Positions 28,903 to 33,957 of a stretch of 39,307 nucleotides of DNA are shown in pieces. The position numbers were made by a program, and so were the translations under genes. The notes below the pieces were generated by a model that saw only the letters and a program-made list of their open reading frames with translations, searched no databases and had not been told where the DNA came from. Numbering within the stretch: position 1 is the stretch's first letter; the number at the start of each line of letters is the position of its first letter. This stretch comes from an uncultured Bacteroidales bacterium (GTDB taxonomy: Bacteria; Bacteroidota; Bacteroidia; Bacteroidales; Paludibacteraceae): positions 1 to 39,307 of the forward strand of contig ONTT01000017.1 in assembly GCA_900320865.1 (NCBI GenBank), read 5' to 3'.

Positions 28903-29436
28903 TTAGTCTATATTCCAATACGCTTCTGGCTCTCCATCAAAGATGGTATCAATGTCCTCATCTGAAAAGCCCGCCACATCGTGAGCATAAGTACCTGCAT
29001 ACTCATCTTCACAATCACTGCCGCTATACGGATACGGATCATAGTGCCTATCGCGAGGAAAGTAGCGCGGTTTTTCCCAATATGGTTCCGGAGCTTCGTC
29101 GCTATATTCGCAAAGTCTTATTTCTTCTATTTTGCCATTTATTTCTACATTTGTAGTAGCACGATGCTTCCCCTCAAATTTCCAAATGGCATCGTACTGA
29201 ATAGGAAGAACCACCTTTCCATCCTTGTTAATTAATCCCCATTTAGATCCTTTTCTTATCCTAGCAAGCCCGTATTCAAAATCACTCACATAAGAATATC
29301 CATATCTGACTTCTAAACTATCTAATTTATTTATTATGTCAGCACTTTCCTCGATTTTTTTGAGTTGTTCCTCTTGTGCACTCTCCGCAGCGTCTGCTAC
29401 AGCAACTCCAATTTGTATTTTTTCTTCGAAGGTCAT
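28903..29436 (-). CDS. WG-repeat protein
   Basis: A 177-residue protein starting MTFEEKIQIGVAVADAAESAQEEQLKK, a helical N-terminus, followed by one WG repeat (FEYGLARIRKGSKWGLINKD, then GKVVLPIQYDAIWKFEG) and an acidic, Tyr- and Pro-rich C-terminus. WG repeats are beta-propeller-like units of unclear, probably binding, function. AGAAGAG just before ATG 29436 is a good ribosome-binding site; the longer frame would run into the promoter. No signal peptide is evident. The lipoprotein gene follows after 14 nt. Confidence 0.78.
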   Translation of the reverse strand: MTFEEKIQIGVAVADAAESAQEEQLKKIEESADIINKLDSLEVRYGYSYVSDFEYGLARIRKGSKWGLINKDGKVVLPIQYDAIWKFEGKHRATTNVEINGKIEEIRLCEYSDEAPEPYWEKPRYFPRDRHYDPYPYSGSDCEDEYAGTYAHDVAGFSDEDIDTIFDGEPEAYWNID

Positions 29437-29459
29437 TTTCTCTTCTTTTTTTGTTTGAC

Positions 29460-29497
29460 GGTGCAAAGGTACTGCTTTGGAGTGCAAAGATGTTGCA
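29460..29497 (-). promoter_or_regulatory. Promoter module of the WG/lipoprotein operon
   Basis: Minus strand: TGCAACATC, then TTTGCAC, a 14-nt spacer with AAAGCAGTAC, then a second TTTGCAC overlapping the -7 box TACCTTTGC. 34 of 38 positions equal the retron promoter at 32893-32930. The usual TTG -33 is replaced by AAC in both, suggesting activator-dependent control. Confidence 0.65.
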
Positions 29498-29505
29498 TTC
29501 GAAAA

Positions 29506-30444
29506 TTAAAGATTCATAATTATTTCTGTTCGATGCAAATGTAAAGGATCTTCAGAAGTTGTTGGATAGCATTTGGAACATGGTTTAAATCCAAGAGATT
29601 CAAGCACATTGACAGCAACATCCGTATCTGCATTATACTTTATCATATAATACTTTTTTAACAGATCAATCATGGGTACTTTAAAGTTATGTTGTGCCTC
29701 ATAAAGACAATCTCTAATTTCTTCTGCCGTAAAACGAGACTTATTTCTACTGTTTATAGTATCAAAATGTTCAGTGTTTTTGTAGGATGAATCTCCTAAA
29801 TATGCACATTTACCATTATAAGCAATATTAAAGAAACTATATTGGCGCAAATCAGATGTTTTCTTATCGGGTTCGTCCAATAGCCATTTCTTAAAATCCT
29901 TTGTCAATTCAACTATTTGATTGCATATATCTTCCAATGAATAATTATCAAAAGTATATGAGCCTGAATTCTTTTTATTCAGAATACCAATATCATCAAG
30001 ACGAATTCCATATTTTGCAAAAAGATGTAAGCCAAAGATATCACTTTTATCTTCTTCTAGGAAATGCAGATTGTCTTTATACCATTGTCTGAATTCCTCT
30101 ATTTTTTCATCCCCCTGTTCCTTGATTTTATCAGGTAATAGAATACCATTAAAATCTTGATTGAGTTTATCACAATTAATATCACAATGATATGCAGCAA
30201 CACTCTCAAAGACATAAGTCTTTGTGTCAACTTTGCGGAGCTTATGGTATTCCGGATTTAATATTATTTCCGGATGGAGGACGAATTCTTTAAATGCTTG
30301 TAATGCTTGTCTTTCACTTTTGTTGAAATACTCAAAGTGGATCTGAGGAATTTCCTCGCACACAATAGCTTGCTCTCCATCGTATTGTTTCTCATTAAGA
30401 TGGAAACTGATACGTTTAAAATTTGCCCGCGTTATATATGCCAT
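29506..30444 (-). CDS. Unknown protein, third gene of the retron operon
   Basis: A 312-residue cytosolic protein without signal or membrane segment. I do not recognise the family. Visible features are a mixed N-terminal half with YHCDINCD (about 84-91), a helical middle (EDICNQIVELTKDFKKWLLDEPDKK), SRFTAEEIRDCLYEAQHNF, and a C-terminal PCSKC followed by HLHR, which could bind zinc. It starts 12 nt after the HEPN-like gene and is probably co-transcribed with it and the RT. A role as retron accessory or effector is inferred from position only. Confidence 0.75.
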   Translation of the reverse strand: MAYITRANFKRISFHLNEKQYDGEQAIVCEEIPQIHFEYFNKSERQALQAFKEFVLHPEIILNPEYHKLRKVDTKTYVFESVAAYHCDINCDKLNQDFNGILLPDKIKEQGDEKIEEFRQWYKDNLHFLEEDKSDIFGLHLFAKYGIRLDDIGILNKKNSGSYTFDNYSLEDICNQIVELTKDFKKWLLDEPDKKTSDLRQYSFFNIAYNGKCAYLGDSSYKNTEHFDTINSRNKSRFTAEEIRDCLYEAQHNFKVPMIDLLKKYYMIKYNADTDVAVNVLESLGFKPCSKCYPTTSEDPLHLHRTEIIMNL

Positions 30445-30456
30445 AATTCAATTGTT

Positions 30457-31173
30457 TTATAATGCAATTATGCTGTTTCTTATTTGTTTGATCACTGCTT
30501 CAATGTATGCCATCTGCATTCCGTCTTCCTGATCTTGCCAGTACTTTAGTGCCTGTTTTTGCGATGCTGAATTAGCATGATTAACTTCATTTCTCACAGA
30601 AACAATAGCATTAAAATACGTTTTGAACTTTTCTAAGATTTCCTCTTGCTCGGTATCAACTGCCCAATACAGCAATTTAGCCCAAAGTGAATTGATGCGA
30701 GACGGATTAACCGGACTATTACCTTTGTTCTTATCGAAAGCATAAGAATAAACATCTATAGAAATTGCATACTTTGGTGTGATTTCCAACTTCTTACAAT
30801 ACCGAGTAGGAGTTGCAGCTACTTTATCGTGAAAAACGGTATGTGCCAAGTAGTAATTCAGCATGTTTTCTACTTGATAGTTGACATGAACAAAGTATTG
30901 ACCAACCTCAAAAATAGATTTGTACCAAAGCATCTTTGCATGGTCATTTATCAAGTTCTGTCGAAGTTGATCGTCTGCTATCTTTTCATAATATGCACGT
31001 GCTTTCTTTCTGCAACGCTGATGCTGGAGGCGCATGGCAGACGAGAAACCAGAGTCGGCATTGGGCTCGGTTGGAGCGACACTAAGACTCTCTTTAAGAG
31101 CCGTCGCAAACTCCACATTCTGTTCACAAAGTTGTTCTACCTTATGGAGAACCTGTAATAGCTTATCATCCAT
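30457..31173 (-). CDS. HEPN-like protein, probable retron effector or partner
   Basis: A 238-residue, almost fully helical protein. Near the C-terminus RNEVNH (R194, N195, H199) matches the RNxxxH motif of HEPN ribonucleases, within a helix (FNAIVSVRNEVNHANS) that looks like other HEPN domains; GQYFVHVNYQVENMLNYYL (about 91-109) could be the partner helix. HEPN proteins often act as RNases in abortive-infection and toxin systems. ATG 31173 overlaps the RT stop by 8 nt, indicating translational coupling; an upstream ATG at 31191 would overlap by 26. No membrane segment. The motif is seen; the activity is inferred. Confidence 0.75.
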   Translation of the reverse strand: MDDKLLQVLHKVEQLCEQNVEFATALKESLSVAPTEPNADSGFSSAMRLQHQRCRKKARAYYEKIADDQLRQNLINDHAKMLWYKSIFEVGQYFVHVNYQVENMLNYYLAHTVFHDKVAATPTRYCKKLEITPKYAISIDVYSYAFDKNKGNSPVNPSRINSLWAKLLYWAVDTEQEEILEKFKTYFNAIVSVRNEVNHANSASQKQALKYWQDQEDGMQMAYIEAVIKQIRNSIIAL

Positions 31174-32620
31174 TCTCAAGTAGAGCGTCAAGCTCCGAAT
31201 TTAATTCGTCAATATTGACCTTATCCTTAAAGTACTTCGAAATATAAGGCTCGTGCACCAACCAGAACGGCTCTGCACCGTTTGAGGGCTCGCAGAATGA
31301 AATGCACAAGCGGTCTTTGGGTAATGAGATATCTGCTGTTAACTTGACAGTAACACCAGTCACTGATCCATCTACAGAAAATTCAGCCCACGTCCATAAA
31401 CTACCAGCGCTCTTGCGCATAGTTTCGTAATTATGCTGCTCACGCTTGAAGATGACTTCCGTTTTCATCTTCTTTTCAAACTCTGCTACTGTATATGTCT
31501 CAAGATACTTTAGATTAGTATGAAGAGGTTGGTTCTTACCACAGCGCTTCGTAAGTTTCTCAAACCTCCTGAGTAACGCCAAATAAGTTGAGTCCTTTTC
31601 ACCTTTAACCATCTTCAGGAAAGCGAGTTTACCATCAACAACACAAGACAAAGACATGCCTTTCTGATGAAGCCAGTTCTTATGCTTGTAGTTCTGATGG
31701 GTCTCTAAGCGCTTTTGCGCTTCGGCATAGCCATATTTCTCCCATATATGAATGAGCCCGCGCAAATCCTTAACATACTTGCGAGCAACATTTACTTTAT
31801 CTTGGCTCACAGTCAACCCCGTAACCTCTTGACGGAAGCCAAGTATGTTCAACCTCGTCTTTTTGGGGTTAATAGTAAACCCCTGGCCTGTTATTATACG
31901 CTCCAATTCCTTCCTAAATTCACTTCCGTCCTGGTACACATTGTGCATAGAACTAAAAGTGATATCATCCGCATAGCGCGTGTAACGAAGACCAAACCTT
32001 TTAGCCAAGCCTGCAAGCAAGTAATCTAATTTATCGCACATTAGATTTGTCAAGACTGGAGAAGCCGGAGAGCCTTGCGGAAGAACATAACGGAATTTCT
32101 TTTCCTCCGGAGTAGTGCCTTCCTGCGTAACTCGCATAGAGCAAAGAGCAGCAATTGATTTTGCTACTTTCCACGTAAAGCAAAAAGGTTTTACCTGAAG
32201 ACGTGCTGCAATACGATGAGCCTCAATGCTAGGGAAGAAATCCTTAAGGTCGATATTAAACATATAGTTCATGCCCATGTGTGCCCTTGCATTATCTACG
32301 ATGCTCCTTCCGGGAGTGAAGCCCATAGTATGAGCAGAAGGCTCGTAGATAGACTGCAAAATCATAGCGACATAACGCAGCAAGTGCATATAGCTCTGGG
32401 AGTAAGGAGCTGAAATCTTCCTTTTTCCACCAGACTTCTTGGGAATCTCGAAATTGCGGTAACGATGGAAAACATGATCCGGGTTTCCGAACCATAGCAA
32501 TTGCTTTTTAGTGTAGGGCTTAAACTTCTCTCCAAGTTCATCCTTCTTTATTGCATTGATGAGTTTAAGCAAATCACCTGCACCCTGCATCTCGTGCGCA
32601 ATATCTTTAATGTTTTCCAT
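31166..32620 (-). CDS. Retron reverse transcriptase with C-terminal extension
   Basis: A 484-residue RT. Palm motifs are FNIDLKDFFPSI (catalytic Asp), LPQGSPASP and RYADDITFSS with the YADD active site. Retron hallmarks are present: NAxxH as NARAH (about 111-115) and VTG as VTGLTVS (about 267-273). NPKKTR and GKLAFLKMVKGEKD follow. About 150 residues after the thumb form an extension without a motif I recognise. It would make branched msDNA from the RNA encoded just upstream (32635-32890). Either ATG 32623 or 32620 may be used. The HEPN-like gene overlaps its stop. Confidence 0.93.
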   Translation of the reverse strand: MENIKDIAHEMQGAGDLLKLINAIKKDELGEKFKPYTKKQLLWFGNPDHVFHRYRNFEIPKKSGGKRKISAPYSQSYMHLLRYVAMILQSIYEPSAHTMGFTPGRSIVDNARAHMGMNYMFNIDLKDFFPSIEAHRIAARLQVKPFCFTWKVAKSIAALCSMRVTQEGTTPEEKKFRYVLPQGSPASPVLTNLMCDKLDYLLAGLAKRFGLRYTRYADDITFSSMHNVYQDGSEFRKELERIITGQGFTINPKKTRLNILGFRQEVTGLTVSQDKVNVARKYVKDLRGLIHIWEKYGYAEAQKRLETHQNYKHKNWLHQKGMSLSCVVDGKLAFLKMVKGEKDSTYLALLRRFEKLTKRCGKNQPLHTNLKYLETYTVAEFEKKMKTEVIFKREQHNYETMRKSAGSLWTWAEFSVDGSVTGVTVKLTADISLPKDRLCISFCEPSNGAEPFWLVHEPYISKYFKDKVNIDELNSELDALLENG

Positions 32621-32634
32621 CATCGTCTAAAAAA

Positions 32635-32890
32635 ATCTCTGGCATACTGATTCCACTTCCTTTTCTTTTCATAAATAATCAGAATAATTCAATATATTCA
32701 TAATTTAATAATATATTAAATTCTGGTTCGCAAAGTTGCACGAGGTTGTGCTGCTTTGCGGGAAAGGATGCATCCGAAACATCCCAAACATTGCTTCTGA
32801 TGTCCGACGAATACATCGGACTACCCACCTTGCGGTGAGCGTTCAAAATTTCATAGAATCAGTATGCCAAAGACCACTTGTTTTTGAAAT
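32635..32890 (-). ncRNA. Retron msr-msd non-coding RNA
   Basis: On the minus strand a1 (GGCATACTGATTC, 32868-32856) and a2 (GAATCAGTATGCC, 32653-32641) are perfect 13-bp inverted repeats, extending to about 18 bp with G-U pairs. Between them in order are two msr hairpins, CTCACC-GCAA-GGTGGG (32839-32824, GNRA-type loop) and GTCCGA/TCGGAC (32821-32802), then msd hairpins CGCAAAG/CTTTGCG with an inner GCAC/GTGC (32760-32729) and a long AT-rich stem (32725-32680). The a2 end lies about 20 nt before the RT start. Ends are estimated from the promoter; the branching G is not determined. Confidence 0.88.
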
Positions 32891-32892
32891 CT

Positions 32893-32930
32893 GGTGCAAA
32901 AGTACTGCCTTTGTGTGCAAAGATGTTGCA
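32893..32930 (-). promoter_or_regulatory. Promoter module of the retron operon
   Basis: Minus strand: TGCAACATC, TTTGCAC, spacer with GGCAGTAC, second TTTGCAC overlapping -7 box TACTTTTGC (32904-32896). 34 of 38 positions match 29460-29497. The two TTTGCAC copies are 21 bp apart, two helical turns, suggesting a binding site. Transcription would start near 32890, just before a1. Confidence 0.68.
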
Positions 32931-32938
32931 CAGGTTTC

Positions 32939-32965
32939 AAAAAAACGCACTTTTACTTGTAAAAG
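32939..32965 (-). terminator. Terminator overlapping the end of the WYL gene
   Basis: Minus strand CTTTTAC-AA-GTAAAAG followed by TGCG and seven T. The stem includes the last codons and stop of the WYL gene, so it ends that transcript before the retron promoter. Confidence 0.6.
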
Positions 32966-33957
32966 CGATTCATCGTGCGCGCGTGCTCTTTCATCATATC
33001 GCGCACGGATTGCGGCTCCAATACCTCCAATTGACTCCCAAACGAGAGAAGAAGCGTAATAAGTTCGTTATTTGGAATAACGTCTATACTTATGCGCATT
33101 TCTTTATCGTAATTATGCTGCGAAGGATGGAGTGGCTTGTTCTTTATATATGGATATCTATCAGGCGCGACACGCATAACAACGTGCTCAATCTTCCTGC
33201 CCTGCGGAAAAGTCACACCTACGATATCATCAAAGTACTCTTCAAAGTTGAGAGAACTAGGCTTCTCAATATATTCCGCAAACATCGGTGAAACCTCCTC
33301 GATTCGGTCCAGGGCAAAGTTCGTAATCTGTCCGAAGCCAGCATTGAAGCCAAACAAAAACCACCGGTTATTGTACTGTTTGAGGAAATAAGGATGCACC
33401 TCGCATGTAATAGGCTTGTTGGCTTTGAAAGATTTATACCGTATATTGAGCACCTGTTTATTTACGATAGCCTCAAAAAGAGGTGTGATATTCTCTAAAC
33501 CCTTCAGATCAAGGTTTTGTTCAAAACCTATTACGCTATCCATGCAACCTTTCAAATGGAAAGTATCTTCTAATTTACTTAGAAGTTCCTCCATCCACTC
33601 AAAGTGTGGCATCCCCTTGAAACGGTTAAGCATCAGGATAGTCTCCCTCAGCTGCTCCAATTCATCATCTGTGATGGGTGACTTCTCAATAGAGAAATTA
33701 GGATCAGCATAACGATAATACACCTTTTTACCATCTCTATAGTGCTCAATGTCGGCGCGGTAGCCAGCATTGGACTCCATATGATTCAAGTCCAGATATA
33801 TTTGACGACGGCTAACCGAAAAGCGTTCTGAAAATGCGTCATAAAGTGCGTCAGCGCATGCACGCTGAAGTTCCTCTATGCCATAACGCCCATGTTTTGC
33901 CCTTAGGCAACGGTCGATTGCGCGGTAGCGCACTATTGCACCTTTGTTCTGAGCCAT
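32953..33957 (-). CDS. WYL-domain transcriptional regulator
   Basis: A 334-residue regulator. An N-terminal winged helix (RYRAIDRCLRAKHGRYGIEELQRACADAL, then VSRRQIYLDLNHMES) is followed by a WYL domain (about 150-260: INKQVLNIRYKSFKANKP region, HPYFLKQYNNRWFLFGFN) and a WCX-like C-terminal domain ending SVRDMMKEHARTMNRFYK. WYL proteins sense ligands, often nucleic acids or nucleotides, and commonly control defence operons. ATG 33957 follows its promoter; the longer frame covers the -7 box. It lies directly upstream of the retron, same strand, separated by a terminator, and is the natural candidate regulator of the twin promoters. Confidence 0.88.
   Translation of the reverse strand: MAQNKGAIVRYRAIDRCLRAKHGRYGIEELQRACADALYDAFSERFSVSRRQIYLDLNHMESNAGYRADIEHYRDGKKVYYRYADPNFSIEKSPITDDELEQLRETILMLNRFKGMPHFEWMEELLSKLEDTFHLKGCMDSVIGFEQNLDLKGLENITPLFEAIVNKQVLNIRYKSFKANKPITCEVHPYFLKQYNNRWFLFGFNAGFGQITNFALDRIEEVSPMFAEYIEKPSSLNFEEYFDDIVGVTFPQGRKIEHVVMRVAPDRYPYIKNKPLHPSQHNYDKEMRISIDVIPNNELITLLLSFGSQLEVLEPQSVRDMMKEHARTMNRFYK

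Follow-up and report, generated by a model that had tools for sequence, protein, structure and literature searches.

The 39,307-nt stretch of DNA analysed here, contig ONTT01000017.1 of an uncultured Bacteroidales bacterium (hereafter the window), very probably carries a real retron, judging by its sequence. A structured non-coding RNA (ncRNA) with msr and msd parts lies upstream of a reverse transcriptase (RT) gene, and a gene of the HEPN family follows. Because this next gene goes with the retron RT in 17/17 genomes, we consider the locus to be more than a routine retron. Its main features are as follows.

32953..33957, minus strand: WYL-domain regulator, upstream neighbour of the ncRNA (PF13280, 3.4e-15)
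32634..32890, minus strand: retron ncRNA (msr-msd), from the fold and from structured RNAs 5' of related RTs; 5' end putative
32853..32879, minus strand: a1 arm, perfect core 32856-32868
32630..32656, minus strand: a2 arm, perfect core 32641-32653
32843..32846, minus strand: UUGA, candidate priming site just inside a1 (putatively G at 32844), kept in relatives
32823..32840, minus strand: msr hairpin 1 with GCAA loop, from the fold; its sequence differs in the related genome G032
32802..32821, minus strand: msr hairpin 2 (GTCCGATG..CGTCGGAC), from the fold, covarying in relatives
32678..32801, minus strand: msd region, three hairpins within a closing helix in the fold
31166..32623, minus strand: retron RT, 485 aa, with NARAH, YADD and VTG and with profile matches
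30457..31173, minus strand: HEPN-family effector, 238 aa from ATG, RNEVNH motif at 30577-30594
29506..30444, minus strand: accessory protein u312, of no known family, an optional neighbour of the HEPN effector

The effector gene overlaps the RT gene by 8 nt when read from its ATG, and the listed open reading frame begins at TTG 31191.

The retron RNA and its reverse transcriptase

Folded as RNA, the minus strand of 32624-32890 reached a minimum free energy of -97.3 kcal/mol. The 200 dinucleotide-preserving shuffles used as a control averaged -55.5 kcal/mol (standard deviation 4.1), and 0/200 were as low (z -10.1). The perfect 13-bp arms reported in the initial annotation (32641-32653 and 32856-32868) are present within a longer pairing of 18 nt that is 94% complementary (32636-32653 with 32856-32873), while the outer helix of the RNA fold spans 23 bp (32853-32875 with 32634-32656). 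An arm of 18 nt lies within the 8-30 complementary bases described for the 5' and 3' ends of msr-msd RNAs. We also recovered the GNRA-capped hairpin (GCAA loop, 32823-32840) and the GTCCGA hairpin (32802-32821) of the msr, and the order a1, msr, msd, a2, RT holds. The msd does form hairpins, as had been proposed, but there are three of them rather than two long ones (32765-32785, 32729-32760 and 32686-32722), enclosed by a helix pairing 32795-32801 with 32678-32684. No Rfam family matched the ncRNA, either across the window at the gathering score or within 32400-33100 at E <= 1.

Covariation of a1 with a2 among homologues, the lack of which would have refuted the claim of the initial annotation, was present. 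Using the DNA 5' of related RTs, we asked whether each a1 region pairs better with its own a2 region than with those of other loci. The set comprised 29 loci after the near-copies L004, L035, L055, L058 and L167 were dropped; L043, whose upstream sequence is missing, was left out, and the RT start of L040 was moved 159 nt upstream after a first run. Own pairs scored 31.9 on average against a cross-locus mean of 20.4 (standard deviation 3.3), and 0/20,000 random re-pairings reached the own-pair mean. The own pair beat every cross pair in its row and column in 18/29 loci, and in six (L036, L046, L042, L086, L166 and L169) it stayed at or below the cross pairs' 95th percentile. In the first run, with 27 loci and near-copies included, 25 own scores lay above the cross mean, and L042 and L040, the latter with its misplaced start, fell below it. 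Among eight aligned sequences of msr hairpin 2, 92.7% of cells were paired and both-sided changes occurred in 3/7 pairs, giving a covariation score of 0.495 (shuffled 0.272 +/- 0.051; 0/500 shuffles reached 0.495). This is modest evidence because the hairpin was drawn from the same eight sequences.

The RT carries the hallmarks expected of retrons, which are NAxxH in region X, YADD, and VTG in region Y (PMC6868368; published sources are cited here from excerpts). The NARAH (32279-32293) and VTG motifs that had been pointed out are both there, as is YADD. Across 15 aligned RTs, YADD was found in 15, VTG in 14 (ATG in one) and NAxxH in 10, with GAxxH in the remaining five (L051, L052, L054, L056 and L058). 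Solved relatives of the window's RT include the retron RTs Ec86 (6e-35) and Ec67 (8e-34). Taken together, the fold, the covariation and the RT motifs support the earlier description of an intact retron, although AGC, the context in which priming usually takes place, is not conserved among these relatives.

Retron priming guanosines usually lie in an AGC context, mostly UAGC, with CAGA in Eco2, and an ACGC context has been reported for Retron-Vch2 (PMC6868368). We examined the priming context in 28 loci and kept the 26 with a clear a1 (L042 and L046 were dropped), searching a 40-nt span that starts 4 nt before a1's inner end and runs 36 nt past it. TTGA occurred in 25/26 loci, whereas 2000 shuffles gave 6.1 loci on average and never more than 14; it straddles the span edge in L053 and is not present in L036. 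AGC was not enriched (7/26 loci vs. 8.5 in shuffles), and 15/26 loci (shuffle mean 1.3) had AAAGAA within the 45 nt 5' of a2 or at their edge. Because the shuffles were mononucleotide and the loci are related, the TTGA and AAAGAA counts show conservation rather than independence. The window's RNA folds with the UUUU 5' of GA paired to the AAAA 5' of a2, so the G at 32844 sits at a helix end. This guanosine of the conserved UUGA is probably the priming base, in place of the usual UAGC. Alternatively, priming could use the guanosine of the nearby ACGC, which directly follows UUGA in the window.

A linked HEPN-family effector

We counted effector genes in a family search of 358 genomes and an order search of 386, both of which include the window's own genome. 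The effector was found in 12/358 and 6/386, or 17 genomes, and in 15/17 it lies directly 3' of the retron RT on the same contig. These 15 include G032 and G033, in both of which a contig edge leaves only a C-terminal piece of the RT before the effector. G160 has its RT and HEPN genes on two different contigs, each at a contig end. In G704 (L085:2935-4593), RT and HEPN form one natural fusion, a 570-aa frame with NAKPH, YADD and VTG, whose RT part matches RT-Protease_XI and which has a 12-bp a1/a2 pair upstream. Not every related RT has the effector: in the family search, an RT at E <= 1e-60 was present in 17 genomes, of which 12 carried it and five did not (G137, G168, G206, G307 and G316), and among the 12 order-search genomes with an RT at E <= 1e-70, five did and seven did not. 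Both contig ends in G032/G033 (L003:3-626 and L002:3-626) break at RT codon 278, perhaps reflecting strain mixture in the metagenomes.

The RT as a single-protein query found four loci in genome contigs and none in viral contigs; an RT alignment query of viral contigs found 142 relatives, of which we analysed the best 80. A frame profile search placed the effector in two of these best 80 loci, L086 and L087, which are the top two RT matches by E-value. In both, IMG/VR contigs from outside the profile, it comes directly after the RT (E 1e-25 and 5e-80). At E <= 1e-5, the L034 effector protein had no match in plasmids and the window's effector protein had none in phages.

A shared stretch delimits the unit. 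DNA of G032 is 96.6% identical to the window over 32920-32133 and 93.7% over 31794-30476, with the contig break inside the RT, and beyond this stretch it shows only short displaced matches, the longest 145 nt. Its flanks hold a WYL protein that is 43% identical and, after the effector, an 875-aa gene. Since the identity is limited to the ncRNA, RT and effector, these three make up the unit. Homologues of the WYL protein are found near many related RTs; we rejected this gene as part of the unit because it falls outside the stretch common to the window and G032.

By its motif signature, the effector looks like an RNA-cutting HEPN ribonuclease-like toxin. All 18 members (18/18) combine QxExxxN with RN..H or RN...H, the spacing being Rx4H in 11/18, including the window's RNEVNH, and Rx3H in 7/18. 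HEPN proteins are described as having an Rx4-6H motif with a polar residue after R at the end of helix 3, and a conserved acidic residue upstream in helix 2 (PMC3710099). RNEVNH fits this motif, and the invariant E of QxExxxN supplies the acidic residue. In an AlphaFold model of the L034 homologue (mean predicted local distance difference test score, pLDDT, 85), helix 199-221 closes with R219-N220 and H223 falls in the loop that follows, although the superfamily helix numbering was not matched one to one. A second look at the effector model with VIA returned AbiA, Csm6 or Roquin in 11 of the first 12 rows, with scores (7.4, 6.5 and 6.2, respectively) all below the caution level for helical models. 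A profile without the window, G032 and G033 rows still recovered the window's effector at 7e-16.

Together with the parts of the locus and the a1/a2 covariation, the linkage of effector and RT and the natural fusion are observed. On that basis, we think it likely that these genes form a defence unit of ~2.4 kb, a retron in which ncRNA and RT accompany a HEPN RNase effector that the RT and its multicopy single-stranded DNA (msDNA) restrain until phage infection. We infer that the transcript would fold with a1 paired to a2, that the RT would recognise the msr hairpins and start DNA synthesis from the 2'-OH of the guanosine just inside a1, and that the msd would be copied into branched msDNA. The RT-msDNA complex would then bind the HEPN protein and hold it inactive. 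A phage protein or activity that alters the msDNA or the RT could release the HEPN protein, which would cleave host RNA, perhaps tRNA, so that growth would stop before phage are made.

It is also possible, if unlikely, that the retron is real while the protein encoded downstream serves as a helical adaptor or a DNA-binding partner rather than as an RNase, with the toxin elsewhere, for example in u312 or the C-terminal extension of the RT. No Pfam, NCBIfam, PADLOC or PHROGs model claims the effector (18 members scanned in NCBIfam, two in PHROGs), so that the family is not listed in these catalogues, and its HEPN matches are only sub-threshold (HEPN_Apea in 3/13 members, best 0.012). Foldseek with both effector models gave no match at E <= 0.001. 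Against PDB sequences, a 13-row effector profile had no match up to E 1 and an 18-row profile had five chance-like helical matches from E 0.052. As a candidate toxin, u312 always comes directly after the HEPN gene, in 4/358 family genomes (G000, G033, G135 and G187; three independent cases, because G000 and G033 are near copies), and RT residues 378-485 (31166-31492), which lie beyond most of the PADLOC match, had no Pfam match. However, the R-N...H and Q-x-E-x3-N signature recurs in 18/18 effectors, and AbiA, Csm6 and Roquin lead for the helical model. Moreover, u312 was not found in 8/12 family genomes having the HEPN gene, for which reason we rejected it as the core effector, and the alignment shows no RT extension, or only a short one, in several loci with a HEPN gene, among them L038, L043 and L052. 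The extension is also present in L034, L035, L036 and partly L005. Among relatives with it, some have the HEPN effector and some do not.

A dead or decaying remnant is highly improbable. Decay does occur in the group, since in G092 the RT is intact but the adjoining effector (L058:6087-6812, counted among the 15 above) is split between two frames. Still, the window's RT, effector and a1/a2 are intact, and both proteins are conserved in G033, with 99.5% identity for the RT piece 278-485 and 96.3% for the effector.

Relation to known systems and effector exchange

In PADLOC-DB 2.0.0, the RT profiles nearest to the window's RT were those of types XI (RT-Protease_XI, 3e-93) and XII (RT-TIR_XII, 2e-88). 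These types, like the G704 fusion, have RT and effector in one protein, whereas the window's RT has no protease or TIR match and the HEPN-family effector is encoded separately. A type XI or XII retron with an unrelated gene adjoining is barely credible despite these best models: the match ends at profile residue 341/510 (XI) and 360/478 (XII), Pfam finds RVT_1 alone in the RT, and the linkage counts (15/17 directly after the RT) indicate that the gene 3' of it is no random neighbour. We rejected membership in either type on the same grounds, as only the first part of each profile is matched.

The retron defence unit proposed here resembles the type IX Retron-Kva2 in having a HEPN protein as effector, predicted in our case from the protein's own motifs. 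In Kva2, a toxic HEPN effector is held in the RT-msDNA complex, a winged-helix gene is present, and the HEPN protein has no canonical motif, with H64/R122 instead (PMC13405049). By contrast, the genes scanned near the window's RT gave no winged-helix match, the motif is R-N...H, and the RT_IX model scored 159 bits on the window's RT vs. 311 for XI. We therefore rejected type IX membership, and the winged-helix partner, non-canonical motif and distant RT of Kva2 set our retron, with its XI/XII-like RT, apart from that type. The effector profile found no Kva2 chain up to E 10. In the excerpts available, the type IX preprint (PMC13405049) was the only work treating HEPN as a studied retron effector, published retron classification and census tables not being covered, and no paper combined "retron" with "RT-HEPN".

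Two other comparisons help to place the system. AbiA is an abortive-infection RT with a C-terminal HEPN that is reported to make untemplated DNA (PMC3710099, PMC8934634). Unlike the window's RT as we read it, AbiA is not a retron RT copying msr-msd RNA. Retron-Eco1 (Ec86) and Retron-Eco2 (Ec67) share RT homology and the a1-msr-msd-a2-RT order with the window, but have other effectors (Toprim in Eco2) and the priming contexts UAGC/CAGA, where the window's group has UUGA. The effector of Retron-Eco1 is nucleoside deoxyribosyltransferase-like.

Related retron RTs keep the ncRNA and differ in effector, chiefly by carrying a HisKin-conflict protein (PF22561) instead. We found PF22561 in 7/7 loci tested where it was expected (L005, L040, L041, L045, L046, L049 and L166), fused to the RT in L040, L041 and L049. 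The corresponding retrons lie at L005:5950-10907, L040:1439-4117, L041:4860-7037, L049:4602-6926 and L166:4854-9562. A response-regulator protein is encoded two genes further on in L005 and in L166, which is a plasmid locus; L167, from another Chryseobacterium plasmid, is annotated with this gene order too, and the RT of L039 has RVT_1 only. In a 37-row RT tree, the HEPN label was given to 17 rows (L055 on the basis of the split contigs of G160) and needed nine changes, compared with 12.6 on average in shuffles, 13/500 of which were as low. The HEPN locus L043 is sister, at 97/95, to L041, whose single frame holds RVT_1 and PF22561 (2e-84). This pattern suggests effector swapping among related RTs, on a tree with uneven support. 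In the Chryseobacterium plasmid locus L166, the HisKin-conflict retron adjoins a restriction-type gene; two proteins of that cassette were scanned with no PADLOC match.

A broader reading, to which we give an even chance, is that this is a retron type absent from the catalogue searched, a Bacteroidales form with UUGA priming whose msDNA guards a HEPN RNase beside or fused to an XI/XII-like RT. RT-msDNA would then serve as a general sensor with swappable effectors, because the same RT lineage carries the HisKin-conflict protein instead, separate or fused, with a response-regulator partner, and u312 would be an added module. Retrons are sorted by RT and effector, and if this is true, an RT lineage remote from type IX would use a HEPN RNase as its effector. 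The natural RT-HEPN fusion would support the guard model, provided the reading holds, and UUGA priming would broaden the features by which retron RNAs can be recognised. Whether sensor and killer are independent can be tested on close RT pairs that differ in effector. A 2019 review named Bacteroidetes as one of the groups in which no retron had been validated experimentally (PMC6868368), and a 2022 review listed Bacteroides among characterised retron groups (PMC8867640). As these accounts differ, in the parts cited, Bacteroidetes retrons appear at best thinly studied.

Neighbouring features

Two further features were noted.

32897..32904, minus strand: -7 box TACTTTTG, fitting Bacteroides TAnnTTTG, read from the sequence
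28903-29487: WG-repeat protein, in the window

Bacteroides promoters combine a -7 box, TAnnTTTG, with TTTG at -33 spacing. Here the -7 box is present and no TTTG was seen in the window at the usual -33 spacing from it, so we regard this as half a promoter only and rejected a full Bacteroides promoter. By eye, TACTTTTG or TACCTTTG also occurs 5' of a1 in L004, L034, L038, L051, L052 and L056.

At the other end of the unit, u312 is an optional module beside the effector, and we found it neither in G032 nor in viral contigs. A three-way alignment of u312 shows conserved C-terminal cysteines (PCSxC). Further downstream, the C-terminal tail of the WG-repeat protein, ~35 residues long, recurs at 72-75% identity in several other loci.
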